Position numbers and translations under genes: made by a program
Shown here: positions 8,857 to 51,400 of the stretch, piece by piece
How positions within the stretch are numbered: the first letter of the stretch is position 1
Layout of the letters: the number at the start of each line of letters is the position of its first letter
Notes under the pieces: generated by a model
Seen by the model: the letters and a program-made list of their open reading frames with translations, nothing else
Database searches by the model: none
Told to the model about the DNA's origin: nothing
IMG/VR virus record: IMGVR_UViG_3300042691_005081
Span: 1-64,000 of that record
From: a virus
Reading direction: 5' to 3' (one strand)
Length of the DNA: 64,000 nt

Positions 8857-8930
8857 AGTGTGGTAGACTGGAGGGGTTCCAGCTCAGTCTCATAAACTGA
8901 AGTACGTTGGTTCGAGTCCAACCCACGCAA
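8857..8930 (+). tRNA. tRNA-like gene with anticodon CAT (Met/initiator type)
   Basis: The 74 bases fold as a tRNA. The acceptor strands are AGTGTGG and CCACGCA (8923-8929), with an A1/A72 mismatch and one G-U type pair. The anticodon stem TCAGT/ACTGA holds the loop CTCATAA (anticodon CAT), the variable loop is AGTAC, and the T-arm is GTTGG-TTCGAGT-CCAAC. A8930 is the discriminator, and CCA is not encoded. The D-arm is unusual: CTGG-AGGGGTT-CCAG is shifted by two bases, so four rather than two bases separate it from the acceptor. The 3' half fits the upstream initiator-type 5' half (8441-8480) better than its own 5' end. It could be a working tRNA or a repaired hybrid. Confidence 0.65.
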
Positions 8931-8961
8931 CAAATTAAAACCAAATATTAAAACTACATTT

Positions 8962-13029: not shown

Positions 13030-14157
13030 ATGTCTAATTGCTCAAATTGCTATGGAGGATGTACAGAGATTGTTTCTGACAGATGTGTTAAATATACAGG
13101 AATAGATGTTCCTGTCCTAGGAATACAAACAGGTGACTCACTGTCATTTGTAGAACAAGCATTAATTACATTTCTTACTTCTACATTAAATGGAGAAGGA
13201 ATAAAAATTAATCTAGCTCCTACAGTGATATGTGAGCTTGTACAACAATATCTTCCTACATGTGGGGATTTATCTGTTGTAGATGTATTAAAAGCCCTTG
13301 TAGATGCTGCATGTGATTTACAAACACAAGTAGGTGCAATTGATGTAGTGCTCACTACATTAAATGCTGATTACACATTACCAGCAAATTGTTTAACAGG
13401 AGTTACAGCTTCTTCAGATACACATGCTATTGTACAAGCTGTAATAAATAAACTTTGTTCAATAAATGCTGATTTTATTCAATTATTAATTGATCTTCCA
13501 AATACATATGTAGCTATTGCTGATATTGATACATTAATTCAAAATTATTTAAATAGTCAAAACTTTTTATCTCTAGCTAAAGATAGAATGATTCCTTATG
13601 CTCCAATTCCTTATTTTGGTCCTCTTTCAAATTATCCTGCTTCAGGAGATAGTTTTAGTATATCAGGAGTAGGATCAGGATATTGGGATAAAGTGTATTT
13701 ATGTAATGGATTAAATAGTACACCAGACTTAAGAGGAAGAACATTGGTTGGTGCTACAACAGGAATGGGTGGAGGTACATTTAATTCTGCTGTAAACCCA
13801 GCTATATCTGGTAATCCTAATTATGCATTAAATACTTTAGTAGGACTAAATCAAGTTGTTCTTACAACTCCAAATCTTCCTTCTCATACACACACAGCTA
13901 CAGTTACAATTAATGATCCTGGACATACACATACAGTAATTGGCTCTAATAATGACAATGGAGATATAGGAAGTTATTTTATAACTACAGGTATAGATAA
14001 TTATGGAAATGCTACTATTACTTCTAATGTTACAGGATTAAAAGGAACAGGTGTAGGACAAAATGTATTTGTATCTAATGCTTCTACAGGAGATAATGCT
14101 CCACACTTAAATATTCAACCTAGTATAGGATGTTATTATATAATGTATATACCATAA
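13030..14157 (+). CDS. Tail fibre/collar protein with HTHT domain
   Basis: This 375-residue protein has a phage tail-collar C-terminal domain. From about residue 198 it reads as a collar fold with LRGRTLVGA, then NLPSHTHTATV (H286, H288) and DPGHTHT (H299, H301), and it closes with NIQPSIGCYYIMYIP. That layout is known from short tail fibres such as T4 gp12 and the microcystin-dependent protein family, where the His pairs bind metal in a trimer. The N-terminal part (VKYTGIDVPVLGIQTGDSL) resembles the anchor of the neighbouring genes at 14171 and 14537. The protein probably attaches through its N-terminus and shows the collar domain as a trimeric receptor-contact or plug. Confidence 0.8.
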   Translation: MSNCSNCYGGCTEIVSDRCVKYTGIDVPVLGIQTGDSLSFVEQALITFLTSTLNGEGIKINLAPTVICELVQQYLPTCGDLSVVDVLKALVDAACDLQTQVGAIDVVLTTLNADYTLPANCLTGVTASSDTHAIVQAVINKLCSINADFIQLLIDLPNTYVAIADIDTLIQNYLNSQNFLSLAKDRMIPYAPIPYFGPLSNYPASGDSFSISGVGSGYWDKVYLCNGLNSTPDLRGRTLVGATTGMGGGTFNSAVNPAISGNPNYALNTLVGLNQVVLTTPNLPSHTHTATVTINDPGHTHTVIGSNNDNGDIGSYFITTGIDNYGNATITSNVTGLKGTGVGQNVFVSNASTGDNAPHLNIQPSIGCYYIMYIP

Positions 14158-14536: not shown

Positions 14537-15409
14537 ATGTCTAATTGTCCTCAATCAAATAATGAAACAATAGAAACAAATACTATATCATACAATAGTA
14601 GCACACTCCCTTGTACAGATGTAGATACGTGTGATGATTTAAATACAATCCTTTCTAAATTTAATACTATTATATGTTCTGCTACAGAGAGTGTAAATAC
14701 AATAACAGAAAATGTAGAAAACATTACACAAGATATATCAAATATAACAAATAGTATAACTAATATAAATAATCAGTTAAATACATGCTGTCCCTCTTTT
14801 ACAACCACCACAACTACCACTACAGCACGAATAACTTGTTCAGTTTATAAACTAGGAACTTCTGGTCCTAGTGGTTCTCCTGGAGATAGTGATTTTTCTG
14901 CAACAAGATGTTTTGGAGGTACATTTTCAGACACAATTGTATTTCCTTTAAATGTTAGTACAGGGTGCATAGTTGATTCTTCTTTAGTATTAGGATCTAA
15001 AGTTATAGTAATTGAAGTAACTCCTTGTCCATCAACTACAACTACCACCACCACTATAACTCCAACAACAACTACAACAAGCACTAGTTCAACTACTACC
15101 ACAACTACTACTGTTGCTCCTACTACCACCACAACTAGCAGTAGCTCAACTACAACAACTAGTTCTTCAAGCACTACAACAACTACTAGTACAACTTCTA
15201 TTCCAACTACTACCACCACTACTACTCTTGGTTTATGTCAAGAGTTTTTAGCAGATGCTGATGGAATACCAGGTACAGTATATTATACAGATTGTACAGG
15301 TGTGCCACAAGAACTTTTTGTAACCACTACAGCTGGTTTTTGTGCAATACAGGGTACAGTATCATCAGGTGGACCTATAATAAGTATAATAGGACTTTGT
15401 CCAACTTAA
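14537..15409 (+). CDS. Thr-linker virion protein, paralogue of the preceding gene
   Basis: This 290-residue modular protein begins with the same anchor as the previous gene (YNSSTLPCTD...TCDDLNTILSKFNTIIC), then an Asn/Thr/Ile coiled coil ending in NTCCPS. A Thr linker leads to a compact domain (residues 97-165, TCSVYKLG... to EVTPC). A long Thr/Ser linker of about 65 residues, broken by ITP, VAP and SIP, leads to a last small domain (about residues 235-290, with two Cys and a closing GLCPT). This is a bead-on-string surface protein. The ACN-codon linker is imperfectly repetitive DNA and could change length. Attachment or decoration roles are plausible; none is shown. Confidence 0.65.
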   Translation: MSNCPQSNNETIETNTISYNSSTLPCTDVDTCDDLNTILSKFNTIICSATESVNTITENVENITQDISNITNSITNINNQLNTCCPSFTTTTTTTTARITCSVYKLGTSGPSGSPGDSDFSATRCFGGTFSDTIVFPLNVSTGCIVDSSLVLGSKVIVIEVTPCPSTTTTTTTITPTTTTTSTSSTTTTTTTVAPTTTTTSSSSTTTTSSSSTTTTTSTTSIPTTTTTTTLGLCQEFLADADGIPGTVYYTDCTGVPQELFVTTTAGFCAIQGTVSSGGPIISIIGLCPT

Positions 15410-32599: not shown

Positions 32600-35401
32600 A
32601 TGGCTTCATTTACAGACAATTTACAATACTTAACAAACTTTAATCCCTACAGACAACAAGTGCCACTTGATGAAATGAGGCAAGTTGGTATGTACAAACA
32701 AGCAAAGTATGAAGAAGGTGTACAAAGAATTCAAACAGCAATAGATAATATTGCTGGCCTTGATATAGCTAAAGATGTAGATAAAACATATTTACAATCA
32801 AAACTTAATCAACTTGGCAATAATTTAAAGACAGTGGCTGCTGGAGATTTTTCTAATTTCCAATTAGTTAATTCTATAAATGGAATGACTAATCAACTTG
32901 TAAAAGATAGTAATGTTCAAAATGCGGTAGCATCCACATCTATATTAAGAAAAGAAAATCAAAGAAAAGAAAAAGCAATACAAGATGGTAAATCTTCTCC
33001 AGGAAATGAATATTTTTTTAATAATCAAGTTGGAGAGTATTTAAATAGTTCAGAGATAGGACAATCTTTTAATGGTAAATACATAGAATACTTTGATATA
33101 GATAAATTTGCTAAAGAAACATTTGATGCTGTAAAGCCTGATGAATATTCTTATGATCAAATTTATCAATTAGGTTCTGATGGAAGACCTATGAAAGATG
33201 GTAGAGGTAATCTTATTTATTCTCCTACAATGACTAGATTAGAAAAAGAGGGAAGATTTCCTCCTAAAGTTAAAGCAACGTTAGAACAAATCTTTTCAGA
33301 TCCAAGAGTAGGTCAACAATTAAACATTACAGGTCAATACAATTATCGTGGGTTAGATACTAATCAACTTGTACAAAAAATTTCATCTCAAAGAGCTAGT
33401 GTATTGAGTGGATATGAAGATCAATTAAATGATCTAGTTCTTAAAAAAAGTATGGGTAAAGATGTGCAAGCTGACATTGATGTTATTGAATCAAAAATAG
33501 CAACAGTGAATTCTGCATATGACAGTTATGTTAATTTAGCTTTTGAAGATCCAAAAACTGTTAGAGGGTCTTTATATAAAGATGATGTGAATTCTAGGTA
33601 CACAACTATGTTTGGGCAGATGAAAGAAAAAACTCAAGTAATGGAAAACCCAGGTTGGAATCAAAACTTTAAACTACAACAAGAAGCTAATGAACAATCT
33701 AGATTTGCTCAAACATTACGTCAGCAAAAGATTGCTCATAAAGATGACATGGACTATAAGTATACTGCATTAGCACAAGCTAAAGAACTTGCTATAATTG
33801 CAGCCAATGCTAAGGGTAAAGGTAAAACACTTGGTGGAGGTGATCTTGATGATGGTGCAGGACCTGGAGGAGATCCTACAGAACAAGCAGCTCAATCTGC
33901 AGCTATTGAAATTATTCGTGTACAAAATGCTAAATTTGAAGAAGCTGCTAGTAATTTCTCTAATGCATCTGATGGATTTATGTGGGAAACTATTTTCTCA
34001 AAAATTCCTAAAAATGATGTTACTCTTAAAGGATTAATGAATAAAGGAATGAAACGTGATGATGCTATTTCATTAATGATAAATAATGCTGCTAAAGCAG
34101 CTGGCCAAAGCCCAGAGCAATATAAAACACATTGGGCAAATAGAGCAACTACGGAATATAATAAATTAACACCAGAAGAAAAAGCAGCACGGCCAATCAT
34201 CTCAGATACATATCATAAATATAGAGATAGTAAACGTATATTTGATAGTGAGTTTATTGTTAAGAAAAAAATTGATACTCAAAGACAACAAGAGCTTGGA
34301 GAAGTTGGTAAGAAGATTGCAATGACAGACTTCAAACCACAAACAATAACATGGCAAGATAAAAAATATACACTTACTAAAGATGATATATTAGATCTTG
34401 CTATATACAAAAAAGGTAATACAGGAATATTAAGTGAATGGTTTGGTGGAGAAGATGCCAGAGCTCTTAAACAAGATTCAAACATGGCTCTTTCTAGATT
34501 AACCAAAAGAGGTAAAGCAGCATTAGCAGAAGCTTATCTTAATGATGAAAATATGCAAAAAGATGAAGGATTTTATAATATTGTAAAAGGAGTAATGGAT
34601 CTTCCTAATAGAATTAGGTATCAATCTGAAGGATGGGGAGGAACTACTAGAGATTGGTCTCAAGTTAAGAAAGCAGAAAATATAATGAATAATCAAGCTT
34701 ATACAGAAGGGATTAAAAAATCAGCTGAAATTATACAACAACATTATAACATTGCTCCAAACAGAAATATTGATGTAATGACAGGAGATAATGAAATTGA
34801 TAGAGGTACATTAGCTAAACTTAAACGTTGGGGTGCTGAGGCTGTAAATGGAGCAGGAAACTTATCTCCAGATTATGAAGACTTTAATGAAAGTTTATCT
34901 AATAACCCTAATGAAAATAATATAGGTGCTCGTACTATTTTTGATGAAAACAATAACCCTATGGTTGAGGTAATATCTTATGATAGTACAGGTAAACGAA
35001 AAGCTGGTATTACATTACAACCTGATCAAGCTACTAAGATTGATATTGATCTAGGAACCTTGTATGAAAATAAAGAAGCTTCTGCAGCTAGAAATAAAAT
35101 GAATTTTAATAATAATCAAACTTCTGCTGAAGATCCTTCACAGACATCTACATATATTTCTGGAGATTCATGGTATGATAAAACTGATTTTCCAGGAATG
35201 AAGGGTAATAAAAACTTTGATGTTCAAGCAAATATTGTATACAGTCGTGGAAAGTATTATCCATTTGTATATGTATCAGATGGTTCTAAACAAACTGTAA
35301 AACAATTAAATGGCGATGAAAACTTAGAAAATTTATTAACAGCTCTTAAAACTGTAGTTACACCTACCTTTGCTAAAGGTTTAATAACAACACCAAACTA
35401 A
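32600..35401 (+). CDS. Virion cargo/ejection protein of the giant operon
   Basis: This 933-residue soluble protein has a helical N-terminus starting MASFTDNLQYLTNFNPYRQQ, a form I associate with crAss-like cargo proteins. Helical regions alternate with short charged loops. A Gly/Asp-rich hinge (GGGDLDDGAGPGGD) lies near residues 411-424, and the C-terminal 130 residues are more β-rich. No catalytic motif is visible. It is the first gene of the operon that encodes the RNA-polymerase-like and nuclease-like giants, with 20 bases to the next start. It is therefore likely to be packed with them, perhaps to hold or guide them through the portal. Confidence 0.6.
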   Translation: MASFTDNLQYLTNFNPYRQQVPLDEMRQVGMYKQAKYEEGVQRIQTAIDNIAGLDIAKDVDKTYLQSKLNQLGNNLKTVAAGDFSNFQLVNSINGMTNQLVKDSNVQNAVASTSILRKENQRKEKAIQDGKSSPGNEYFFNNQVGEYLNSSEIGQSFNGKYIEYFDIDKFAKETFDAVKPDEYSYDQIYQLGSDGRPMKDGRGNLIYSPTMTRLEKEGRFPPKVKATLEQIFSDPRVGQQLNITGQYNYRGLDTNQLVQKISSQRASVLSGYEDQLNDLVLKKSMGKDVQADIDVIESKIATVNSAYDSYVNLAFEDPKTVRGSLYKDDVNSRYTTMFGQMKEKTQVMENPGWNQNFKLQQEANEQSRFAQTLRQQKIAHKDDMDYKYTALAQAKELAIIAANAKGKGKTLGGGDLDDGAGPGGDPTEQAAQSAAIEIIRVQNAKFEEAASNFSNASDGFMWETIFSKIPKNDVTLKGLMNKGMKRDDAISLMINNAAKAAGQSPEQYKTHWANRATTEYNKLTPEEKAARPIISDTYHKYRDSKRIFDSEFIVKKKIDTQRQQELGEVGKKIAMTDFKPQTITWQDKKYTLTKDDILDLAIYKKGNTGILSEWFGGEDARALKQDSNMALSRLTKRGKAALAEAYLNDENMQKDEGFYNIVKGVMDLPNRIRYQSEGWGGTTRDWSQVKKAENIMNNQAYTEGIKKSAEIIQQHYNIAPNRNIDVMTGDNEIDRGTLAKLKRWGAEAVNGAGNLSPDYEDFNESLSNNPNENNIGARTIFDENNNPMVEVISYDSTGKRKAGITLQPDQATKIDIDLGTLYENKEASAARNKMNFNNNQTSAEDPSQTSTYISGDSWYDKTDFPGMKGNKNFDVQANIVYSRGKYYPFVYVSDGSKQTVKQLNGDENLENLLTALKTVVTPTFAKGLITTPN

Positions 35402-35421: not shown

Positions 35422-38400
35422 ATGCTTCAACCAGATAAAGAAAATTATATAAATAGAAAAGCAGTTTCTTTAGGTCTTCCAGTTACACCAATTGTTGGGG
35501 ATGTAGATTTTCAAAGAAATCAATCTGAACCAGGTCAAAGTATATCTGCCCTTGATATGTGGGATAGAGCATTAGCTACTCCTAGACATTTAGGTGTAGC
35601 AGATATTCCATTGTCTTCTTTTTATATAGGTAATAGATATAAACAAACTTTACCTGGAACAGACTATGAAGAGATGGCTGCTAGTGGTCAGAGTGCTGGT
35701 GAAAGATGGACCAATGGTTCATTAAAACTATTAGGTACTGCTGCTACTTCTTTTGTATCTGGTACTTTAGGACTTGTGAATGGTATAGGTGCATCTATTG
35801 CAGAACAAAGACTTGCTTCTTTGATTGATAATGATACTACAAGAAGAATGGATGAGGTAATGCGAAATATGGAAGATTTTGCTCCTAACTATTATTCACA
35901 TGAAGAACAAAATGCTGAGTGGTATTCTACAAAAAATATACTTACAGCAAATTTTTGGTCTGATAAAGTATTGAAAAATCTTGGATACTCTGTTGGAGCT
36001 ATAGGAGGTGGAGTTGCATGGGGATCTTTATTCAGATCTATTGGACTTACTAATAGATTAGTTCAAGCTGGTAGAGGAATGGAAGCTGCTACAGCTATTG
36101 AAACATCAATGTCTGCTGTACCAAACATGCAAAAGCTTAATGCATTTGAAAGTGCATTAAACTCTATGGCACAAAAATATATTAAGTCTCCAATATCTGC
36201 TGTATTAAAAGACTCTGATAGAATTCTTACATCTACTATGGGTACATTTGGTGAAGCTTCTATGGAAGGTCTTCAAGGAATGAATGAATATAGAAAAAGT
36301 GCTATAGAAGAATACAAAAAAATATATGGAGAAGAACCTACAGGAGCAGCATTAGATAAAATCAATGAGTCTGCTGATCAAGTTGGTATGTATATTTGGG
36401 GAGCTAACAGTCTTTTATTAACTGGTACAAACTACATTCAGTTACCAAAGATATTAGGAAGCTCAAGAAAAGCTGATAAAGCTTTAATCAATGAGATAAC
36501 AAAAGATGCTGAGACTGGTTTATATAAACAAGTAGTTCCAAAAACTACGTTTGGAAGACTTACACAAAGAGCTAAAGGATTAAGTCAAGTATTATTTGCT
36601 CCTTCAGAAGCATTTGAAGAAGGAATGCAGTCATCTATTCAAATAGGTGTAACTAATTACTTCCAACGTGCCCAAGAAAATAAACAAGATACTAAAGAAT
36701 TCCTAAGCACATTAAGTGGGGCTATGGGTAATGTATTTGGTGAAGGTATTTATGAAACATTAACTACTAAAGAAGGACTAGAAAGTATTCTTATTGGTGG
36801 TATATCAGGAGGAATTCAACAAGGTGGTATTGTTGGTACATACAAAAATAAACAAGGTAAAACAAGACTGGGTATTGGTAAATCAGGAGTAATAGGTGAA
36901 CAAGGTTTATTTGGCCTTGGTGGAGAAAGACAAGCTAATACTAAAGAGGCTATTGAAATTCTTAATAAAACAACTCTTGAGAAACAACTTAAAGATGGTG
37001 TTAAGTATTTAGGGATAGGGATAGGTTCTCAAAAATTAAGACAGGCTGCAATTGCTGGTAATGATGTGCTTTCTGAAAAAGATTATGAAGCTGATTTTAC
37101 ACTTTCTTATTTGATGCCTAGAATTAAGTATGGAAAAATTGATGCTGTAAAAGAAGAACTTGATCTGTATAGAAATCAAGCAATGGATGCAGAGGGGTTT
37201 AGAGAATTAGTAAGAGGAGGAATTGCTAATGAAAATGAAACCAATGCTCAATTTATAAATAGGATAGATAATTTACAGAAATTATCAAAAGATTTAGAAA
37301 TATTATATGATAAAATAAATGATAAATATGAAAATGAGCTTAATAGTAAAGGAGAAATTAAATATTCTAGTGATGTAATAGATAAACTTGTTTATGCTGC
37401 TTCAAAAATTAGAGATTATGACAAGCGTATACCAGAAGTAAATAATTCTATTATTGGTTCAGGTGTTAATTCACAATCTTTTTTAAATGCTTTATTGTTA
37501 GAAGAAAATCCTAATGTTAATGATATTAAAGATGCATTACTCACTATTGATACATTAGATATAACTGATGATGAAAAACAAGATTTTAAAAATAGTTTAT
37601 ATGATTTAGCAGAACTTTCTTTAAGAAGAAAAGAAATGATTAATCAATATAATAGTATATTAAATACACCAGAAAATTTCTTAGATAAAGAAGAACCATC
37701 TGTAGATAAAGATGGAAATATAATTCCTAAAGAAACCATTACAGTTAAAGTTAAAGATGGTAAAACAGGACAAGTAGTAGATAAAAAAATCGAAATAGGT
37801 ACTGAATATTTAGTAGGTAGAGTTGTTAAATATGATAAAGATGGGAATGAAGTTATTCAAGCTCCTACACTTAGTATACTAGCTGATAATGGTGATGGTA
37901 CATATAAAATTAAAGATGCTAATGGTATAAGAAATGTATCTGCACAAGTTCTTGAAGATTATCAATTATCTAAATTATCTGATATAACATCTGATAAAAA
38001 GAAAAACTATGTATATGTAAATAGAAATAATCTTTTTTCAAACAAATTAATAAAAGATATTAATGGTAATCCTGTTATAGGAAGACTTGAATACTCTTCT
38101 AATGAAGATAGACTTACATTTGTATATAAAAATGAAAAAGGAAAAGTTATAAGAAGAGAGGTTTATAATAATATGTTTAAAGCTAAAGAAGGTTTTAAAG
38201 AAGCTATTATTACACAAGTAGGACAAGTTACTGCTGAAGCTGCAAAAGCTACAGAAGAGTTTGTTAATGCTCCAACCACTATATCTCAAAGATTACAAAC
38301 ACGTAATAATATTATATTAAACTTATATGAAAAAAGTACAAAAAGATTAGATGAGATAACTAAAAAACTAAACACTAGTAAAGAAAGAGCAGAAAAAGCT

Positions 38401-41400
38401 GTTGAAGCATTAGAAGATCAACTTGCAAAAGAAAGTCTTACAAAAGCAGGAAAACCTAGAAAGAATCAAACTCCTGCAATGAAAAGGATAATTAATGAAC
38501 TATCTTCTTTAAGAGCTACATTAATTAAAGAAAATGAACAATTACAAAGTGAAAAAGAAGAATTAGAATCCAACATTCCATTTTTTAAAGATTTCTTAGA
38601 TAATCTTGAAACTCTTCCTGAATCAGGAAGAGAGATGATTAAATTATTAAAATCTGATATTAACACTCTTGAAGATTTAATTGATATAACTAATAAAGCT
38701 ATTAAAGATAATGATAGTTTATTAAAACAAATAGAAGATGCTTTAATGAAAGCTCTTAGTATATTTAATGATTATATTAAAAGACTTCAGGAAGATAATC
38801 CAGGTGTTCCATTATTTATAGATGATTTAAGAACCTACCTTGAAAATACATTAAAAGATAAAGGAATAGAAGAACTTAATAATATTTCTTCAGAGTTTTT
38901 AGCAAAAGCAGTAGAACTAGATTCCGATATAAATGACTTCTCACAAGAATTAAAAATACCTTCATTAAATAAAAAAGCAGAAGAACTTGTTAAAGACATT
39001 AAAGATTTAAAAGAAGGACTTGATAAACTTATTAGTGAACAAATAGCTAAGAGAGAAATATTAAATGCTTTTGAACAATTTGCAGAAGATGTAAAGAGAC
39101 AAGAAGAAGAAGCTAAACAAATGCAACGTAATGTAACATTAGGGCAAGAACTTCTTGGTACATTAACAGGTAGTGTTCAAAACTTCTTTGGCACAAAACC
39201 ATATGAACAAGAAGCTAAGAAAGATAAACTTGCTGTTGTAGGAAGTACTAAACCTACAACAGAAGATAGTGAAGAAAGACCTTTACCTAGTTATGCATCT
39301 AGAGTTAATCACTTTGGAGCTAGAGTGTCTGATATGGACAACGTAGATGATTTAAGAGGAACAATTGTAACAGCTGAAACAGAAGATCAAATACTTTCAG
39401 GACTAGTAGATAACTTCTTAAATGAAGACACAAGAGCAATTACTCCAGCTAGAAGAGAAGAGATTAAGAAAGAAGTTATATTCTTAGTTGTAACAGAGAA
39501 TGGACAACTTGTAGATAAAGATGGAAAACTTATTCCTGGAAAATCTGCTGAAGAAACACAGGAAGCTTATAACAAAAGACTTTATAATAATGCAATATTT
39601 CAAGTGTTTCCTTCTGCCAGTCTTACATCTAAGATAAAAGAAAAAGATGGAAAAGAAAAAACAGTTTCTATGTTTAGAGATACTGTTCCTGGATATGAAA
39701 GAGATAGTTTAAAAGAACAATACAAAGCATGGAGAACTACGCAATTAGCTAATAAAACATTAGATAAAAAAGGACAGAAGTTCAAAACATCTTTTGGTAA
39801 TTTAGAGTTTGTTAAGGTGTGGGATGATGCAAAGAAAGAATTTGTTAATAATACTGCTACAAGAACTTCTGCACAAGATGCTGGATTATTAGCTAAGGGT
39901 ATTCTTAACAGAGATGCTGTCATCACTGTTGCTACAACTAATGATGATAAGTCTGAAGGAAGTGTTTCTTTTAAATCTCCTAAAGGTAGAGTGTTTTTAC
40001 GTGTTCCTGGACAAGGACTTGTCAGATTACAGAATAAAAAATTCACTAAAGAAGAAGCAGAAACAATATTTAGTGCTATGTTAAACTTAGCAAAAAATGC
40101 TTCTGAAAATGGTTCATTATATGGTGGTGAAAAAGAAGAAGTTAATAAAAATATTTTAAACTGGTTAAAGAGTGTTGTATATTGGGGAATTGCTAAATAC
40201 CCTGATGGTACAAGAAAAGATGCTGGGTATAATAATATTTGGTTTGAAGATGTATTAATAGATGGTAAACAAGTTAAGAAGTTATTTTTATCTGGTTTAC
40301 AAAAAGAATCTCAAAAATATTTTGATTTTACACCTCAAGGTTTAACTAATAGTAAACAAGATATTCTTGGATTATTAACACAAATGTATGCTAATACAGA
40401 TGCTAAAAAAGTAAACATTGATAATTATAATGCTCCATACGATGAAATATTAAGATTTGATAATTTAGGAAATCCTGTTACAAGAACATGGCCTAATTAT
40501 CAAACATATTTATTATCTGCAAACATTGTAGATAAAGATGGAAATGTAATAGGTAAAAGAACAGGAAAAGAAATTCCTCTTACAACACAAGTTAGACCTC
40601 TTACATCACCAGAAGATACAAATAGAAAAGGAATATATTTCACATTAAACAGTTCAGTGGAATACACTGTACCTGCTGCTCCTGTAGTAGTTGCACCAGC
40701 ACCTGTTGTTTCTACACCAACTGCTCAAGCTCCTGTAGCTGCACCAGTTGCTAAACAGCAACAACCTACAGCTTCTGGGCAATATGATTTAAATGGAACA
40801 GCAGAAAATAGTATTACTATAGGTGGTGGCTCTGATGGTAAGGGTGGTACTAGAAAAATATATAATTTAACTTTTACATTTGATATTAGTAAAATATCCG
40901 ATTATTTAAAAGGATTAACAGATTTCACTAGTCTATATAATGATAAAGGTGTATTAACAACAGAGTTTTTAACTGTATTAAAAGAAAATAAAGCAGTAAC
41001 ATTTTCTGATGTAGAAGGAAATACAAATGGTATTATGCAGTTTAAAGCTGATGTACCTAATTCTTTTGAAGGTATTGCTTTAAATAAAATATTTGAAGCT
41101 GTTGCTCCACAAATTGTAGCAGAAATGATTCCTGTTCAACCAGCAATAGCTGATGAAGCTCCTGTAGTTGAAGAAGAAATAGTTACTCCTGAAGAAGTAA
41201 TATCAACAACTGAAGTTTCTGAAGATGAAATTAATATAGATGATTTAGATACTGATGATGTAGATCCAACTCAAATGAGGGTTGCTCAACTTATTGATAA
41301 ACTTGATCAATTTAAACCAGAACAATGGAGTAAAGTGGAAGAAGCAATACGTAAAATGCTCCCTAATATTCCTTTCTATAGAGTAAAAAATATAATTAAA

Positions 41401-44400
41401 GGTACTAATGGTAGACAAGCCTGGGGTATGCTTCATGATGCTGCTATATACGTATATGAAGGAGCAGAAGAAGGAACAGCTTATCATGAGGTGTTTGAAG
41501 CTGTATGGAAAATGTTTGCTGGACCAGCTCAGAAACAAGCTATAATTAATGAGTTTAAATCAAGAAAAGGATCTTTTACTGATAGAGAGTCTGGTAAAAT
41601 TATAGAATATAAAAACGCTACTGCATATCAAATCAAAGAACAACTTGCTGAAGAGTTTAGAGATGCAGTTCTTAATGATAAGTTAGGTAAACCATTAGAA
41701 TCAAAAACTTTAATAGGTAGATTGTTCTCTCAATTGATTGATGCCATTAAAGCTTTTTTTACAGGAGAGAATGCTCAACGTAATACTAAAGAGTTATTTA
41801 ATAATATTGGTAATGGCTATTATGCACAATTTAATCCTTATCAAACACAATTATCTTATGCTAATAGAGGCATAATAGATATTGAAAATGCTCAAGCTAA
41901 TGCTGACTCTGAAATGAGATCAACAACAATTCCTGAGATTGAAATGCATGATATTATTCAACACATGACATTCTTAACATTGACTAAACTATCTCTTAAT
42001 AACAAGAGTGTATTCACTGTTAATGAGCAAAAAGAATCTGAATTATATCCAGAACTTAAACTTAGTATATTAAAACTTCTTGCTAAACAAAACAAGTTAA
42101 TAGATAAATTAGTAGTAGATGGTAAAACAACATTAGAAAAAGCTACAAGATTAAAAAATAATAATAAAACTTTATCTAGTAATATTCAGAAAGAATGGGA
42201 AGAAATTAAAAAGAACCATAAGGCACATTTAAAAACATTTGATGTTCAGTTTGATGAGAATGATGAAGGATTATTAAATAGTGATGAAAATACTGGTAGA
42301 GGAGAGTTTGAGGCAGCTAATAAAATAGACTCATTTAGAAAAGCTAATGCTGCATTAAAACTTGTATTAAGTACACTTCCTGTTACACAAATAGTAGATG
42401 GGAGTATAAATTGGTTTCCTTCTTCTATAGGAGGAGTTACACTTATTCCTGCAGAACAAATACACATTGATTTAAAAAGTAAACTACATAGCTCTATGGA
42501 TATAGAAGACATGTTATTTGGTCTTAAAACAATGGCAGAAAACAATCCTAATTACAATGCTTTATTTAGAAGACTTACAGGTAATTCCGCTAGTGTAGGA
42601 CTGGATATTAACACTATTGAAGAACATGATTTTCAATTAGCAACAGCATTATGGAAATCTATTAGTATGCAGAATCCTGATGTTATCACTGTATTTTTAC
42701 AAGAAGATGGGGATGTAGTTGTTAGTAATTCTACACTTAGTAGTGCAGCTAAATCAGCTAAAAAAGAAATGATTAATGATATAATATCTACACTAAAAGC
42801 AGATCAATCTAAATATTTTAGATATGTACCAGCTACAGGTAGATATTATGCTAAAGATAACTTAAAGGCTCTTTCATTTGATGGTAGCACTTTAAAACCT
42901 TATATTGATTTTCTTAAATCTATTGGTATAAATTTTAATGAAAGAGAAATAGAAGATTTAAAACCAGACCAAATTACAGCATTTAAAAAATCAGTAAGTG
43001 ATATTAAAAATGAACTTTCTAAAGTTGGAGATACTAAAATAGTAAAAGATGCTAACAATAATGATGTTGAAGAGGATGGTGGTATAAGAACGATTAATAC
43101 TAAAACATTAAATATTGATGGAGACTTATTAAGACTTGCTATTGTAAAAGCTGTTATTGAAAATACAGAATTTCAATCTACATATTTTAATATTAATGGA
43201 GAACGTACACAATCATTTATTGGTACAAATCTTATTAGTGCATTACACAATACCCTATCTAAATTAAAGAATATAGAAGAATTACAAAATGATGCTAGAT
43301 ATAAAAGGTTTGCTTATTTAGCTGCAAACAATGATGTATTTGTACAAGGAAGTCAAGTATTAAAGAAAATGTTTGATATAGTGGGAGTAGATAGTACAGG
43401 TAAACGTAGAGCAGGTACAGAAGAAATATTAAAACCTGTTATTATAGATGGAATTGTAGATGAAGAAACTGGTAAAAAAAGAGAAGCTTCTAAAGTTACA
43501 TACAGACAAAGACTTATACAAGAAATAAATCTTAACCTATCTGGTATATTTATGAACCTTGTTCCTGGGGATGCTTCATTAGAACATGCTATTAGAATGT
43601 ATAATGCTAAAGATCCATTTGTATCAGAAGATGAACTATCTAATAAAAATTACTTAGACATATTCAAAGACTATTTTATTTCTGAAGTAGAACTTGTTAA
43701 AGAAAATAGAAATACAGCAAAGGATAATGGTAAAGATTTACGTTTCTTTAAAGCTATTCTAGGAGAAGAGATGCACAAGAAAATTGCTACTAGAATTAAA
43801 AAGGATACTGATGCTGCACAATTATATGAAGATAATAAACAAGCTATAAACTCTGCAGTAGAAGAATTTATTAAAAAAGAAACAGCAGATACAGAAGCTT
43901 TATTAAGAACTTATGATATTATAACAACAGAAGATAATGTAGTTAAAGTAGACAAAGTAGATTTATTTAAAAAAGGAGAAACAGTTACACAAGCTGGTTT
44001 AAATACAAAATTAAAAGCATTAACTATTAACTACATGATAGCTAACATAGAAATGCATAAAGTTTTATATTCAGATCCTTATCAATACAGTGATGAGCTT
44101 AAACGTATTAAAAACTTTACATCTCCTGGACAACCATTAGTTCCTAGTTCACAAGCAATAGATGCTAGACTTAATGAGATTTATAACAAAGGATTTAAAC
44201 CTGCTGACATTGGATATACAGATATGACTCAAGATCATTTTAGATCTATAGCTTTACAAGATGTATTAAGTACAAATGAAAATATTGGATATGATGTTCC
44301 TTATGAAGAAACAGATGGTGGAGGATTAATAACATTAAAAGGAGCTAGAATATTTGCTTTAAGAGCTGGTACATGGACTGCTAATAATGAGAAGCAATAT

Positions 44401-47400
44401 AGATTTGATGTAGCATTTGAAGAACTTGTTAAATCTGGTGCTGATGAAACTACTATTAAAAAATTCTTAAAAGGTAATCCAGGAATTAAAGATACATATA
44501 CACCTGTTAAACCTATTGTTAGAGGTAATAAAGAGAACGGTAGAAGTTATAATGATATTGTATTACATAAGTTTGCACTTGCCCCATTATCATTTAGAAT
44601 TCTTTATGAGTTAAATCCTAATTCTAATGCAATCAAGTTGTATAACAAGATGCAAAAAGAAAATATTGATTATGCTGTATTTGCTTCTGGTAGTAAAGTG
44701 GGAACAGAAAAAATATCTCCTTTGTATAATGCAAAAGGTGAGTTTGATAATACACCATTTGAAGATGCTAGAGAGAAAAAGGGTAATCTTCCAGATAATG
44801 TTAAAAGAGCTGTAACTAATATACCATTTACTATTGTAGCTGTACAGTCAGAAGTTCCTTCTAAAGATGCTCCAGTTGTTACACAGGGATCTCAGATTAC
44901 CAAACTTGCTACTATGGATTATTTAGAATCTGGTGTTCCTGTAGACTTTATGCCTGGTAAAGAATTTGAAGATAGATTCATTGAATGGTTAGCTCTTGAT
45001 GATAAATCAAGTTACAATGGTGGTAATAATATTTATAATGAAATTGTAAATAATCAAAAACTTTTAGAAGCTAGAATTGAAGATGGTATACAATCTTTAT
45101 ATAAGAAACTTGGTATTGTAGAAACTACAAATGATGAAGGAGATAAACAATGGGTAATAGAAGATAGAAATAAATTAGTTAACACTCTTACAGAAGAGAT
45201 TGGTAAAAGAGAGATCAATTATAACATTACAGATGCATTTGAAGGATTTGTGAAAGGTGATGTTATATTAGAAGCTACTCCTGTATATCAACAAGTAAGA
45301 AACATTCTTTATTCTATTGCTGATAAAACTATTGTACGTCCTAAAATATCAGGAGGTATGAAAGTGCAAGTATCTTCTGCATTATTAGAATCTGTAAGAG
45401 CAGAAGGAAAACCTGTATTAGATAGTAAAGGTAATCCAACATTTAATAAAGATGGTAGTCCTAAACTTACATATGAATCTAATGAACTAAAATTCTATAA
45501 GAATAAAGATGGTGAGAGAGTATGTGAGATAATGATTGGTAGATGGTTTAAATCTAATAAAACAAATGAAGAACTTATGGATTATTTTAACAATGATCCA
45601 GAAGGTAAAAAAGAACTTGCAGCTATTACAGGTGTAGCATTTCGTATTCCTACACAAAAACAAAACTCTATTGATGTATTCAAGATAAAACAATTCCTTC
45701 CTAAAGACTTTGGTGACTCAGTAATTATTCCTTCAGCTCTTGTTAAGAAAGCAGGATCGGATTTTGATATTGATAAATTATCTATTTATCTAAAAAACTT
45801 ATTTACAGAAAATTCTGGAAGATTAAAAAGAATTCCTTTTTATGGTATAGGAGAAGATGCTAAAAAAGAATTTGGAAAACTATATGATGTTGGATATTTT
45901 GATAAGTATATATCACAAATAAAAGATTCTCTATCTTTAGAAACTGCTGAAGATAGATTAATGGAAAGTATATTTCCTGAAGAATATTCTTTACAAAAAG
46001 AAAATATTATAGGTGAGTTATATAAAGCATCATTAGAAAATGCCTACATACAATCATTAGAAAATCTTATATCCCATCCATTAAACTATGATAACTTAGT
46101 TAAGCCTAATGATGCTGATCCATTAAAGAAACTATCAGAGGATATTCAAAAAGAGATGGGGTATGAAAAAGCAGATTTTGGTAATGTAGGTAATATGTTA
46201 AGTAGAGGATTTATGTCTAATTTAAGACAATCTTTTGTTGGTGGTAAAAAAGCATTAGGTATTGCTGCTCAAGGACAAACAGGACATGCTCAAAGACAGC
46301 GTAGTGTTACATATATAGATGTAGATAGACTAGAAGGAGATTTAATAAATGAGCAAGACAAAATTATTCTTGGTTACAAACCAAACTCTTCTTTGTTTGC
46401 TACAGATACAAACATTAACTTCCAAGAATATAATTCTGCAATTATAAATGGTGTACGTAGACCAATGCTTTCTTGGATTAAGAATAAAGCAGGTGAATAC
46501 ATATCAGATATTAATGGAATGTTTATTGATGGGTATGTAGATATTTCTAAAGGTGACTGGATTATAAAACTTGGAGCAACTACTAATGTAGCTTCTACAT
46601 GGTTGTTTCTTGCAGATTTAGGTGTTCCTATTAAAACTGTGGCTTATTTTATGAACCAACCTATTATCAAAGATTACTTACGTGCTATTGAAAATAAAGG
46701 ATATTCATGGTTGTACAATGATTCTATATTAGAAGACAAACTAGATGCTTATAATCCCAGCCCTAGTTTTTTAAAACAAGGTACATCTATAAAAGGTATT
46801 CCTTCAGAAACAGATTTATTTGAAATGCTTAAATATAATAACGCTGCTCCTAAAAAAGATATGTCAGATCTTCAAAAGCTACAACAACAATATATGTTAA
46901 AAGAGTTTTTGAAATATTCTAAAATAGCTTCTCATATGTTTAATATATCTCAAGCATCTAACTATGATACAGCTAATCTTAATGATCCATATTTAGTATT
47001 TAAGAAAATAATTCAATTAGAGAAAGCAAGGAAAACCATTATATCTTCTGTAGATGATATTATTTCAGGATCTTTTGTAAAAGAATTAAAAAATAAAATA
47101 TTTGATTATAGAGATGCATTCTCTGAAATATTAATGTCAGATAGAGGTAATGTTAGACAAGTGATGCAAAATGTTTTAGAGCCATATACAGATATGCCAG
47201 ATAGAGATTTTGTTAAACTCTCACAAAAAGCTGTAAATGATCTTTTTGATTGGGCAGTACAAACAAATTCAAATGTTAATACAAAAATTTCTTCTATATT
47301 ACTAGGAACAGAAACAGAAAAATCTGCAGCTGAACAAATCATTGACTATAGAGATTCTATATTAGGTAATCCTGTAAAAGGAATAGCTCCTAAGCCAGAA

Positions 47401-48462
47401 CATAAATTGTTCAATAACATCATTCTTAATTCTTTGTCTATAGATCAAAATGATAAACAAGGAGGTAAAAAAGGTGCTCCTATTAATCTTGTATTAAATA
47501 ATAGAGATAATAAAGTGTATGATCAAAACTTAACCATATATGGATTCAATGAGTTAAGAGAAACATTAAAGGAGGAAAACAATTTAAAACTGTATGGTAA
47601 ACTAACTAGACTTGCTTTATTACAATCAGGATTAACCAATTCTCCTATATCATTCACTAACCTTCTTCCTTATGAAGATTTTAAAGGAATATACAATGAA
47701 ACCTTGTCTATATTAGAAAAACTTCCTAACTTAGCACAATTTCAAGAATTAAATGTTTTTGAAAGAAATAACTGGAATAATAGTGATGTAGTTACATATA
47801 AAAGAGCTACATTATATTTTGGGGAAGATAAAGATGGTACTAAGTATGTATCTAATTTAGATAGAGATACATTAATTAAACCATTAAAAACTGCTGTAAA
47901 AAATAATGTTATTCCTAAGTTAGTTGGACTTAGCCCTATGACAGAAGCTGGTAGATCAGATTTTATTGTTTATTCTTATGAAGATGTCATTTCTTCACAA
48001 CAAAGAATTCTAAGAAGAAAAAATGGAGACACACAACATCAACATAAAATGTTAATGCAGAAGGTGTATACAACAGATGCTAATAATAAAAGAGTTCCTC
48101 TTCTTCACATCACTGAAAAGAAAAATAAAAAAGGAGAAATGGTTATTTACACTAAACATGTGTACAAAGCAATTAATGCATGGGGTGATTCATTCAGAGC
48201 ACAAGAGTTCTACACAACAAACCAACAATCAGTATTAGATAATGGATTTGATAAAGTGAATGAAGTGGAAGACGATGTTATTGTAAACATATATAAAGGT
48301 GGTGGTGTCACTGCTACAGCTGATGTTGCTATTACTCCTACAGAAAATATCAAACTGAAAGATGGTAATGAATATAACAAAGCTGATATTAATTCAGAGA
48401 TGCTAGAAGCAATGGGTTATACACCAAAAGAAATAGGTAAAATTTTAAAATCAATATGTTAA
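35422..48462 (+). CDS. 4346-residue giant virion protein with RNA polymerase and zincin-like domains
   Basis: This single uninterrupted ORF of 13 kb encodes a multi-domain virion protein. Residues 1-480 are Gly/Ala-rich helices like ejection proteins (with APSEAFEEGMQ). About 850-1250 is coiled coil. A Pro/Ala linker starts at V1750 and an acidic linker near 1910. A zincin-like site, GTAYHEVFEAVW (H2022, E2023, E2026), is followed by EQLAEEF. The polymerase signature is RIPTQ (3408-3412), then SDFDIDK with D3447, D3449 and D3451. It matches the β' pattern RAPT...NADFDGDQ and the crAss-like virion polymerase motif. An upstream SGSKVG (K3092) may belong to the partner barrel. The protein would enter the host and transcribe early genes. 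Confidence 0.85.
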   Translation: MLQPDKENYINRKAVSLGLPVTPIVGDVDFQRNQSEPGQSISALDMWDRALATPRHLGVADIPLSSFYIGNRYKQTLPGTDYEEMAASGQSAGERWTNGSLKLLGTAATSFVSGTLGLVNGIGASIAEQRLASLIDNDTTRRMDEVMRNMEDFAPNYYSHEEQNAEWYSTKNILTANFWSDKVLKNLGYSVGAIGGGVAWGSLFRSIGLTNRLVQAGRGMEAATAIETSMSAVPNMQKLNAFESALNSMAQKYIKSPISAVLKDSDRILTSTMGTFGEASMEGLQGMNEYRKSAIEEYKKIYGEEPTGAALDKINESADQVGMYIWGANSLLLTGTNYIQLPKILGSSRKADKALINEITKDAETGLYKQVVPKTTFGRLTQRAKGLSQVLFAPSEAFEEGMQSSIQIGVTNYFQRAQENKQDTKEFLSTLSGAMGNVFGEGIYETLTTKEGLESILIGGISGGIQQGGIVGTYKNKQGKTRLGIGKSGVIGEQGLFGLGGERQANTKEAIEILNKTTLEKQLKDGVKYLGIGIGSQKLRQAAIAGNDVLSEKDYEADFTLSYLMPRIKYGKIDAVKEELDLYRNQAMDAEGFRELVRGGIANENETNAQFINRIDNLQKLSKDLEILYDKINDKYENELNSKGEIKYSSDVIDKLVYAASKIRDYDKRIPEVNNSIIGSGVNSQSFLNALLLEENPNVNDIKDALLTIDTLDITDDEKQDFKNSLYDLAELSLRRKEMINQYNSILNTPENFLDKEEPSVDKDGNIIPKETITVKVKDGKTGQVVDKKIEIGTEYLVGRVVKYDKDGNEVIQAPTLSILADNGDGTYKIKDANGIRNVSAQVLEDYQLSKLSDITSDKKKNYVYVNRNNLFSNKLIKDINGNPVIGRLEYSSNEDRLTFVYKNEKGKVIRREVYNNMFKAKEGFKEAIITQVGQVTAEAAKATEEFVNAPTTISQRLQTRNNIILNLYEKSTKRLDEITKKLNTSKERAEKAVEALEDQLAKESLTKAGKPRKNQTPAMKRIINELSSLRATLIKENEQLQSEKEELESNIPFFKDFLDNLETLPESGREMIKLLKSDINTLEDLIDITNKAIKDNDSLLKQIEDALMKALSIFNDYIKRLQEDNPGVPLFIDDLRTYLENTLKDKGIEELNNISSEFLAKAVELDSDINDFSQELKIPSLNKKAEELVKDIKDLKEGLDKLISEQIAKREILNAFEQFAEDVKRQEEEAKQMQRNVTLGQELLGTLTGSVQNFFGTKPYEQEAKKDKLAVVGSTKPTTEDSEERPLPSYASRVNHFGARVSDMDNVDDLRGTIVTAETEDQILSGLVDNFLNEDTRAITPARREEIKKEVIFLVVTENGQLVDKDGKLIPGKSAEETQEAYNKRLYNNAIFQVFPSASLTSKIKEKDGKEKTVSMFRDTVPGYERDSLKEQYKAWRTTQLANKTLDKKGQKFKTSFGNLEFVKVWDDAKKEFVNNTATRTSAQDAGLLAKGILNRDAVITVATTNDDKSEGSVSFKSPKGRVFLRVPGQGLVRLQNKKFTKEEAETIFSAMLNLAKNASENGSLYGGEKEEVNKNILNWLKSVVYWGIAKYPDGTRKDAGYNNIWFEDVLIDGKQVKKLFLSGLQKESQKYFDFTPQGLTNSKQDILGLLTQMYANTDAKKVNIDNYNAPYDEILRFDNLGNPVTRTWPNYQTYLLSANIVDKDGNVIGKRTGKEIPLTTQVRPLTSPEDTNRKGIYFTLNSSVEYTVPAAPVVVAPAPVVSTPTAQAPVAAPVAKQQQPTASGQYDLNGTAENSITIGGGSDGKGGTRKIYNLTFTFDISKISDYLKGLTDFTSLYNDKGVLTTEFLTVLKENKAVTFSDVEGNTNGIMQFKADVPNSFEGIALNKIFEAVAPQIVAEMIPVQPAIADEAPVVEEEIVTPEEVISTTEVSEDEINIDDLDTDDVDPTQMRVAQLIDKLDQFKPEQWSKVEEAIRKMLPNIPFYRVKNIIKGTNGRQAWGMLHDAAIYVYEGAEEGTAYHEVFEAVWKMFAGPAQKQAIINEFKSRKGSFTDRESGKIIEYKNATAYQIKEQLAEEFRDAVLNDKLGKPLESKTLIGRLFSQLIDAIKAFFTGENAQRNTKELFNNIGNGYYAQFNPYQTQLSYANRGIIDIENAQANADSEMRSTTIPEIEMHDIIQHMTFLTLTKLSLNNKSVFTVNEQKESELYPELKLSILKLLAKQNKLIDKLVVDGKTTLEKATRLKNNNKTLSSNIQKEWEEIKKNHKAHLKTFDVQFDENDEGLLNSDENTGRGEFEAANKIDSFRKANAALKLVLSTLPVTQIVDGSINWFPSSIGGVTLIPAEQIHIDLKSKLHSSMDIEDMLFGLKTMAENNPNYNALFRRLTGNSASVGLDINTIEEHDFQLATALWKSISMQNPDVITVFLQEDGDVVVSNSTLSSAAKSAKKEMINDIISTLKADQSKYFRYVPATGRYYAKDNLKALSFDGSTLKPYIDFLKSIGINFNEREIEDLKPDQITAFKKSVSDIKNELSKVGDTKIVKDANNNDVEEDGGIRTINTKTLNIDGDLLRLAIVKAVIENTEFQSTYFNINGERTQSFIGTNLISALHNTLSKLKNIEELQNDARYKRFAYLAANNDVFVQGSQVLKKMFDIVGVDSTGKRRAGTEEILKPVIIDGIVDEETGKKREASKVTYRQRLIQEINLNLSGIFMNLVPGDASLEHAIRMYNAKDPFVSEDELSNKNYLDIFKDYFISEVELVKENRNTAKDNGKDLRFFKAILGEEMHKKIATRIKKDTDAAQLYEDNKQAINSAVEEFIKKETADTEALLRTYDIITTEDNVVKVDKVDLFKKGETVTQAGLNTKLKALTINYMIANIEMHKVLYSDPYQYSDELKRIKNFTSPGQPLVPSSQAIDARLNEIYNKGFKPADIGYTDMTQDHFRSIALQDVLSTNENIGYDVPYEETDGGGLITLKGARIFALRAGTWTANNEKQYRFDVAFEELVKSGADETTIKKFLKGNPGIKDTYTPVKPIVRGNKENGRSYNDIVLHKFALAPLSFRILYELNPNSNAIKLYNKMQKENIDYAVFASGSKVGTEKISPLYNAKGEFDNTPFEDAREKKGNLPDNVKRAVTNIPFTIVAVQSEVPSKDAPVVTQGSQITKLATMDYLESGVPVDFMPGKEFEDRFIEWLALDDKSSYNGGNNIYNEIVNNQKLLEARIEDGIQSLYKKLGIVETTNDEGDKQWVIEDRNKLVNTLTEEIGKREINYNITDAFEGFVKGDVILEATPVYQQVRNILYSIADKTIVRPKISGGMKVQVSSALLESVRAEGKPVLDSKGNPTFNKDGSPKLTYESNELKFYKNKDGERVCEIMIGRWFKSNKTNEELMDYFNNDPEGKKELAAITGVAFRIPTQKQNSIDVFKIKQFLPKDFGDSVIIPSALVKKAGSDFDIDKLSIYLKNLFTENSGRLKRIPFYGIGEDAKKEFGKLYDVGYFDKYISQIKDSLSLETAEDRLMESIFPEEYSLQKENIIGELYKASLENAYIQSLENLISHPLNYDNLVKPNDADPLKKLSEDIQKEMGYEKADFGNVGNMLSRGFMSNLRQSFVGGKKALGIAAQGQTGHAQRQRSVTYIDVDRLEGDLINEQDKIILGYKPNSSLFATDTNINFQEYNSAIINGVRRPMLSWIKNKAGEYISDINGMFIDGYVDISKGDWIIKLGATTNVASTWLFLADLGVPIKTVAYFMNQPIIKDYLRAIENKGYSWLYNDSILEDKLDAYNPSPSFLKQGTSIKGIPSETDLFEMLKYNNAAPKKDMSDLQKLQQQYMLKEFLKYSKIASHMFNISQASNYDTANLNDPYLVFKKIIQLEKARKTIISSVDDIISGSFVKELKNKIFDYRDAFSEILMSDRGNVRQVMQNVLEPYTDMPDRDFVKLSQKAVNDLFDWAVQTNSNVNTKISSILLGTETEKSAAEQIIDYRDSILGNPVKGIAPKPEHKLFNNIILNSLSIDQNDKQGGKKGAPINLVLNNRDNKVYDQNLTIYGFNELRETLKEENNLKLYGKLTRLALLQSGLTNSPISFTNLLPYEDFKGIYNETLSILEKLPNLAQFQELNVFERNNWNNSDVVTYKRATLYFGEDKDGTKYVSNLDRDTLIKPLKTAVKNNVIPKLVGLSPMTEAGRSDFIVYSYEDVISSQQRILRRKNGDTQHQHKMLMQKVYTTDANNKRVPLLHITEKKNKKGEMVIYTKHVYKAINAWGDSFRAQEFYTTNQQSVLDNGFDKVNEVEDDVIVNIYKGGGVTATADVAITPTENIKLKDGNEYNKADINSEMLEAMGYTPKEIGKILKSIC

Positions 48463-48463
48463 T

Positions 48464-51400
48464 ATGGCAACTTGTCCAAATAAAAATACAGAAGCTTGGC
48501 AACTACTAGTATCTTCTAGAGGAGAAGATGTAGCTCATTACCTATGGGATAAATATGATGGTCTTGTTCCTGAATCAGAAAGTGGAGAACAGATAGTGAA
48601 AAGTGGATTGAAAGCTACAAACATTTTACAATCTGCTAAAGCTGATCAGTTTTTTAATACTGTTTCTAAGAATAAAATATCTGGTGATTTTTTCTGGAAG
48701 AAAATGCAAGCTGATCTTGGTATTCCTAAAGATCAATTAGAAATATTAAAATCATTTGATACAGAGGATAAAGGAGAACTAATCTCCTCTCTTCTTGCTA
48801 ATTATAGTTATGCTATTGAGATTAATACTGCTAAAAATAAAATAGCAACTAGAGGAACAGAAGACAGTCCATCATTTGATCAATATGGAGAATTAATAGA
48901 ACAAGTTAAAGAAGCTGAGTTTGAAAATACACCAACAAAATACTATTCTAACCTAACAGTTCCAGGAGGAACTAATTATACAGAGAATGAAATAGCTACA
49001 CCAGCTATTACACCTTCTATTAAAGGACATGCTCAGTTTGCTACTGATAATGGCATAGGATGGTTTCGTAGCGATGATAAATCTATTATAGAAACTCCTG
49101 AAAATGTTGAAGATGAAATAGATTTATGGACAGCGAAAGAGGTTAATGGTAAAGTAATAGTACCTACTAACAAATCTACTAAAACTCGTAGAATATTAGA
49201 AGTACAATCTGACTTATTTCAGAAAGGTAGAGACGAAAAAAAAATAGTTAAAGAAGAATATAATAAAGATGAAGTTTTTAAAAGTGAACAATTTAAAAAT
49301 GCAGAAGATGATGATGTAATAGATATAAAGTTATCTAATGGTAAAAATGTAAAAATACAAAAAACATCTGACTTTGGATTTAAAGACTTAGACTTTAAAA
49401 AGTATATAACTGATTCTAATAATCAATTCCTTCAATTATTAAACCAAGGATCTAACTGGGTAACATTCTTTGTTAAATCTATTGTACAAGATAGTTCTAA
49501 GAAAGGATATGAGAAAGTGTTATTCCCTTCTGGTGATACAGCTAGTAAAGTGGAAGGACACACAACATTAGAGCAGTTTAAAAAACAGAAAGAAGATAGG
49601 TTAAAAGAGCTTGAGGATAAAGTTAATAAAGGTAGATATGTACTTACTGATAGCACTGGGTTTCCAATGGGTATAGCTCCAATAGATTCTGACATCAATG
49701 TATTAAAAAGTAATAATCCAACATTAAAAATTGAAAAAGAGTCTTTGACGCAAAAAGAATTAGATGATACAAATAATGAAATAAACCAACTTAAACAAGA
49801 ACTTGAGAGAGTAGAAGGTCCAGAAGGATTTGGTGCTCTTAAACCTATATATAACTTCTATGAAAACACTGTAAAGAATGTTCTTAACAAACAATATGGT
49901 AAAGAAAATATAAAACAAGTTACTGATGAGTATGGTAATACATGGAATGAAGTAGAGATTGTTGCTGAGAGAGAACAACAAACTATATTATTTCAATCAG
50001 AAGATATGGCTGCATCTAAAGCTTCAGATGAAACTGTATCTATGATGAGACAAGCTGCTGAGCAAATGGGTATTGATATTCAAGACTTACTTGATTACGC
50101 TAAAGCTAATCCTAATGTAGATGTTAAGAATGTAAATGGACTTGCTGATCTTATGAAAGGAGCAGTAGCTATTGCACAAGGAAAAGAAGGTGTAGCATTG
50201 ATTGAGGAGATTGTTCACATAACAACAGCTATATTAGAACAAACTGATCCAAAACTTATAACAGAACTTATCAGTAAGATAGATAGATTTAAAATCTATA
50301 AGCAAGTGTTAGAGGTTTATAGTAAGAAGAAAGAGTATCAGCTTGCTAATGGAAAACCTAACATTAGAAAGATTAAAAAAGAAGCTGTGGATAAACTTAT
50401 ATCTGAGGTGGTAGTTTATCAATCTGAGGGCTCTACAGAATATCCTGAGCTGATGGAAGAGGAAACAAGAAATTGGGTTCAAAGTTTGTGGGATATGATT
50501 CTAGATAAACTTAGAGGTGTGTATAGAAAATCTAATATTGATATATTCCAAACAGCAGGAACAATAGTTAAATCTGGTAAAGCTGGTACAGTGGCTGATA
50601 TAAAAACTGAAGGAATTTATTTTCAAGTAGATGGAAGTGTTAAAGCTAAAATAGATAACTTTTATAATAAAGTAAAAGGTTATGCTAAAGAAATGGTTTA
50701 TATTCCTGAAATAAAAGATGCTCAAGGTAATATAACTCAAAAAAGAGGTTATACATTTAAAGGACAATCTGTAGCTACAACTATTACAGAAAAAATAAAA
50801 AAGAATAAAAAATTTCCAGAAAGAACAGCTGAACAAGAAGCTACAGATAATGAAAAAAAAGATTGGGGAAATGAAGGACACAGATTTTTAGAAAGATATT
50901 TTGTTACAAATCTTATTGATCAAGATGGTTATAGAAAACCAGTATTTGAGGACAATCCTATAAATTCTACATTAAGTTTAGGTTTACAAAAACAATTAAA
51001 AAACTTTGCAAAAGAACTTATTGCATCATATCCTCCTGGAACGAGATTTCTTATAGAAGAAATGGTTGTTAACTTAAAGGAAAAAGGAATGATTGGTTCT
51101 AGAGTGGACTTTAAAGCTGTATATCCTTTCCAAAAGAAGGATGGAACTTATGATATGAAAATCGATACTCTTGACTGGAAGTTTACTACAGTGGATAAAA
51201 CTAGATATGACGATATATCAAGAGACAAAATAAAAGACTGGGTTCCTCAAATGGGACAATTTGTTGCTATTGATTATACATATGGTGCTTCACAAAATCA
51301 AATTGGTAAAGCACGTATGATTCCTTTTATAGTTAATTATGATTATAGGATAGCAGGAGATAAGAAATCTGGATTAGTTCCAACAGAATTAGAAATAGGT

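Follow-up and report, generated by a model that had tools for sequence, protein, structure and literature searches.

The window, a stretch of 64,000 nucleotides from a 65,606-bp IMG/VR fragment, carries an ORF of 4346 codons that is open throughout, its sole stop being the terminal one (the reverse strand has 310 stops). It is flanked by a 933-aa ORF and a 2056-aa ORF (Table 1). PHROG matches elsewhere in the window identify TerL (4e-74), portal (3e-97) and MCP (1e-35), all of them crAss-type. The nearest TerL is that of Leptolyngbya phage Lbo-JY46 (35% identity), followed by those of Crassvirales-type and other phages, and the nearest named head protein is also that of Lbo-JY46 (25% identity); these identities imply a lineage that is uncultured and only distantly related to the crAss phages of the gut. 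With crAss-type TerL, portal, MCP and transcription block all present, the sequence points to an uncultured Crassvirales phage. A tRNA-Met gene stands alone between structural genes (8857-8931). The 933-aa ORF matches the protein at the same place in Lbo-JY46 (E=9e-48) and is probably a further virion or cargo protein.

Table 1. Features in and around the giant ORF, with positions in the window
Feature	Position	Strand	Basis
Upstream ORF, 933 aa, before the giant	32600..35401	+	homologues upstream in related loci
Fused cargo protein and virion RNA polymerase, 4346 aa	35422..48462	+	ATG ORF
crAss001 gp47-like N-terminal region (virion cargo), residues 64-758	35611..37695	+	blastp, profile
Pro/Ala-rich linker, residues about 1745-1800	40654..40821	+	sequence
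Acidic linker, residues about 1905-1950	41134..41271	+	sequence
Zincin-like domain, residues about 1990-2140	41389..41841	+	profile matches to gp47-type proteins
Single-chain two-barrel virion RNA polymerase, residues about 2140-4346	41839..48459	+	profile, fold searches
K3092 of SGSKVG, candidate partner-barrel catalytic lysine	44695..44697	+	invariance, alignment to gp66
RIPTQ, residues 3408-3412	45643..45657	+	aligned with RIPNQ of gp66
SDFDIDK, residues 3446-3452, metal-binding Asp triad	45757..45777	+	aligned with gp66 D1361/D1363/D1365
Third chain of the transcription block (gp65/gp49 position), 2056 aa	48464..54634	+	profile, synteny
N-terminal CPN module, 39 aa, candidate cargo tag	48464..48580	+	profile

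The layout that the earlier note had proposed for the giant is largely borne out. The Gly-rich N-terminal part is there (32% Gly at residues 451-500), as are two linkers read from the sequence (Pro/Ala near 1750-1790, acidic near 1905-1950), a zincin-like part (YHEVFEAVW at 2021-2029), and the RIPTQ and SDFDIDK motifs at the residues assigned to them. What had been called an ejection-type N-terminus is a homologue of crAss001 gp47, a known virion cargo protein. (Mass spectrometry has detected gp47, gp49 and gp50 in virions of crAss001; PMC10172136.) Homology to gp47 is found by blastp for residues 107-758 (E=1.5e-23) and 1887-2129 (E=7e-8). By profile it covers both the N-terminal ~750 residues (E=1.4e-73 to crAss001 gp47, 6.7e-72 to cr128_1 gp51) and the zincin region (E=7e-17 to crAss001 gp47). 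The front ~2,100 residues are thus homologous to gp47 and end in the zincin-like domain.

In the cyanobacterial phage Lbo-JY46 a protein of 1552 aa is homologous to this front part (E=1.5e-68), and the virion polymerase is not matched there in a search whose query does find phi14:2, crAss001 and cr50_1. Since the front occurs there alone, with no polymerase detected, it does not in itself belong to the enzyme; we infer that it performs a separate function in the virion and does not act as a catalytic subunit of the polymerase. (The Lbo-JY46 locus, PP438436.1, 62354-75260, has a crAss-like terminase, head protein and gp47-like protein, polymerase not being detected; the last gene of its block encodes a 2748-aa protein that starts with MSNC and has two HExxH motifs.)

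From residue ~2140 to its end at 4346 the giant is a whole two-barrel polymerase of the phi14:2 gp66 type, and the catalytic residues expected of one are in place. In a tblastn search of 50,697 phage records with the last 2187 residues, phi14:2 gp66 is the best match (E=8e-15) and all 58 records matched are crAss-type. The clade profile aligns with residues 141-1748 of gp66 (E=4.3e-37), and this homology over nearly full length supports the suggestion that the C-terminal ~2,200 residues are the whole enzyme. A profile search of the PDB with the polymerase part returns one match, the gp66 structure 6VR4 (E=1e-34), with GSDFDIDK placed on GSDFDIDK, RIPTQ on RIPNQ and SGrKVG on DGVKVG; 6VR4 is reached by profile only, single-sequence phmmer of the giant against the PDB giving no match. 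The DxDxD motif of RNAP β' type, SDFDIDK, is invariant in the 72-row alignment, as are, individually, D3447, D3449, D3451, R3408, P3410, K3092 and K3161. A lysine of the partner barrel had been guessed near 3092; it falls exactly on the invariant K3092, which aligns with the KVG of gp66 and is the candidate catalytic lysine of that barrel.

Structure prediction leads to the same enzyme. The AlphaFold model of residues 2895-3815 (pLDDT 87.6, pTM 0.87) has 6VR4 as its only significant match in a fold search of the PDB (E=4.2e-26), and the less confident model of residues 1890-2900 (pLDDT 74.8) again matches 6VR4 alone (E=1.5e-13). The comparison with the gp66 structure that had been proposed as a check thus comes out positive over 1890-3815, and, on the sequence and fold matches together, the enzyme is taken to run from about 2140 to the end. 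Covering both motif regions, the predicted structure of 2895-3815 is consistent with two double-psi barrels in one polypeptide, and D3447, D3449 and D3451 should meet, judging by their alignment to 6VR4. Conservation of DFDID is not circular, because the motif was absent from the patterns that retrieved the first scan's 14 relatives, and all 14 carry it (the patterns of the second scan included GSDFDID and hence do select for it).

The combination of these parts in a single chain had been considered unusual. It is not: front and polymerase form one ORF in 70 of 71 distinct related contigs and the same fused layout is seen in named Suoliviridae, namely cr118_1 (gp14, 4946 aa), cr50_1 (gp59, 4774 aa), cr114_1 (4272 aa), cr113_1 (4328 aa) and, longer still, cr130_1 (5801 aa) and cr272_1 (over 6000 aa). 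CrAss RNA polymerase genes of up to about 6000 aa have been described (PMC10136315; PMC7886860). The exception is L017 (L065 and L103 are the same contig), in which two overlapping genes are split at about residue 2081; the split is judged to be derived because the nearest relatives (63-68% identical) are fused. Triple fusions that add the third protein occur in L074 (6409 aa) and L119 (5491 aa). The latter ORF (gp47-like, zincin, polymerase and third chain; Chitinophaga sp. YR573, NZ_FOJF01000001.1, 309-16784) lies in a 4.8-Mb chromosome contig. A TerL 38% identical to that of the window lies about 30-40 kb away, which gives the locus the look of a crAss-like element integrated into the genome of an isolate. 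In cr108_1 (L003, 21101-21392) the polymerase reading frame is interrupted in the catalytic motif itself: gp54 ends at the equivalent of window residue 3447, gp53 begins with YDID, and some 290 bp, probably an intron, separate the two.

The zincin-like domain of the giant has H2022-E2023-V-F-E2026, that is HExxE in place of the HExxH with downstream Glu ligand that is the zincin metalloprotease signature, together with a conserved E2073. HExxH is found in 13 relatives of the giant, and profile alignment places HEAFH or HESFH at the matching position of crAss001 gp47, cr128_1, cr118_1, cr50_1 and cr108_1. Residue 2026 (41497-41499) is Glu in 59 rows (L065, which is without the domain, being counted among them), His in 13, and nothing else, with at least 6 changes between the two on the tree. 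Exchange confined to two zinc ligands, as opposed to drift, suggests retention of metal binding, and the domain is probably metal-binding on this sequence evidence. Pfam and NCBIfam assign no zincin or protease family to the giant, nor does Pfam to the HExxH members. In the model of 1890-2900 the predicted strands, motif helix and Glu helix follow in the right order for a zincin; the fold search with this model returned no zincin fold, the polymerase dominating the match.

Three other accounts of the giant ORF have to be weighed. That a DxDxD motif arose by chance in an unrelated giant structural protein might be argued from the failure of Pfam, PHROGs and NCBIfam to name any domain above cut-off, and from a second DxDxD (DLDTD) at 1941, on account of which the motif alone is weak evidence. 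However, one sequence search and two fold searches each single out 6VR4 as the only significant match, and the catalytic residues are invariant over 72 rows; the chance reading is already refuted by these observations and retains practically no probability. A further possibility, which we consider unlikely, is that the fused chain is a precursor that the zincin-like domain, or some other protease, cuts near 2080-2140 into gp47-like and gp66-like proteins, so that the particle would be the same as with separate genes. The position of the zincin-like domain directly before the polymerase would fit such processing, as would the restriction of residue 2026 to metal ligands over at least 6 changes and the lack of a recognisable zincin in the split relative L017 and in phi14:2 gp67. 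Yet crAss001 and cr128_1, whose genes are separate, still keep HEAFH, HExxE is not standard for an active zincin, and the junction (2101-2200) is conserved as much as the enzyme instead of forming a variable cleavable linker. The more specific proposal that the zincin is the obligatory self-cleavage enzyme of fused chains is weakened by its retention in crAss001-type split proteins.

The remaining account, which appears equally doubtful, has the front part forming a DNA-ejection channel with the polymerase tethered at the membrane and transcribing DNA during its entry, along the lines suggested for ejection in P23-45 and N4-type phages. The Gly-rich N-terminus, the homology of the front to a virion cargo protein and the P23-45 precedent of an RNAP fused to the tail tape (PMC10770324) all lend it something. 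On the other hand, the front part yields no transmembrane or channel feature by Kyte-Doolittle analysis, which finds only weak hydrophobic segments (the best has a mean of 1.32, at 101-119) and no strong hydrophobic helix, and the authors of the crAss001 work attribute the channel to gp45 and gp46 rather than to gp47 (PMC10172136).

The third chain of the block matches cr108_1 gp52 by profile (E=2.9e-33) and, by synteny, occupies the gp65/gp49 position. Among its homologues a PD-(D/E)XK-type nuclease domain is recognised (PF12705, above gathering score in L095), and since this homologue carries the domain, a nuclease may be ejected together with the polymerase. The ORF starts MATCPNKNTEAWQLLVSSRGEDVAHYLWDKYDGLVPE, and its first ~39 residues follow the pattern 'CPN...EW..LV..GE..AYYLW'. 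The profile of this CPN module is found at the N-terminus of the third protein across the clade, in cr108_1 also, and in Suoliviridae (E 1e-8 to 1e-14). When the first ATG is taken as the start, a Cys lies within residues 2-6 of the third chain in 65 of 66 ORFs, the remaining one showing MATCPN at an ATG further on, and none of 63 fused giants has a Cys-containing N-terminus. The polymerase of L017, the sole case of a free polymerase, does begin with the module (7727-7843); at the internal junction of the triple fusions (L074 and L119) it is missing, the third-protein profile beginning at column 81. The simplest reading that we can propose is a tag needed by free chains: all free chains of the polymerase block would have to carry it for loading or ejection, and chains placed behind the front would need none. 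This role is put forward tentatively, the split-polymerase evidence coming from one lineage (L017), and the module may have another function, for example in the assembly of free subunits.

Specificity for the module lies in the 39-aa profile and not in a Cys near the start. The notion that any Cys at residues 2-6 marks cargo was discarded, tail-fibre N-terminal domains of the CPVILNATCVFYEG type sharing this feature, and hhalign detects homology of the module to the Suoliviridae starts and none to the M-x-C starts of phi14:2 gp66 and gp65 or crAss001 gp50 and gp49. Two further proteins of the window (13030-14157 and 14537-15409) have a Cys-rich N-terminus (C..C...CV.Y.G) resembling the starts of ORFs that lie downstream of the third chain in relatives; this is probably a shared tail-fibre attachment domain.

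The order of the block in the window is that of phi14:2, cr118_1 and cr50_1. Gp66, gp67 and gp65 of phi14:2 resemble the giant in the ~2,200-aa homology, the catalytic motifs and the gene order, and differ from it in that the genes are separate and gp67 gives no zincin match. In crAss001, gp47 matches the front of the giant and gp50 the back; unlike the giant, gp47, gp50 and gp49 are encoded by three separate genes on two strands. The Suoliviridae giants likewise have a zincin-like domain and a GSDFDID polymerase in one chain of 4.3-6.4 kaa, with the CPN-module protein coming next. They are set apart by HEAFH or a diverged zincin, by identities of about 20-25%, by the use of TAG as a sense codon in several of them, and by a gp47-like front that is too diverged to detect. 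The N4-type virion RNA polymerase has a T7-like single-subunit fold and is not a two-barrel enzyme. It is a giant (~3,500-residue) protein that is ejected (PMC12633501). P23-45 gp96 also joins a virion polymerase to a non-polymerase virion protein in one chain, whereas in this siphovirus the polymerase is N-terminal and its partner is the tape measure (PMC10770324).

The ORF is best explained, with a probability of about 0.9, as coding for an RNA polymerase that an uncultured Crassvirales phage packages in its virion and that is fused to the C-terminal side of a virion cargo protein of gp47 type. From its homology and architecture we infer packaging, ejection and transcription by the giant, which would be carried in the particle as one chain. 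The chain would be loaded into the capsid and would thread the tail partly unfolded, ahead of the DNA (partly unfolded exit through the tail has been argued for crAss001 cargo; PMC10172136). In the host the polymerase would refold and transcribe early genes without the host polymerase; transcription of early genes has been shown for phi14:2, according to the summaries in PMC10136315 and PMC7886860. Packaging and exit would be the task of the gp47-like front, and fusion to it would deliver the polymerase as a C-terminal passenger.

The giant is a well-supported further member of the known crAss virion polymerase group, in which fusion is normal. For the environmental crAss-like clade to which it belongs, one-chain delivery of the virion polymerase would be the rule. 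The persistence of a gp47-type protein by itself where no polymerase is detectable, in Lbo-JY46, links this protein to delivery and not to catalysis. If the tag reading of the CPN module is true, gene fusion and tag would be interchangeable routes for bringing the polymerase into the particle, and the module is a candidate, open to testing, for a tag that loads very large proteins into phage heads.
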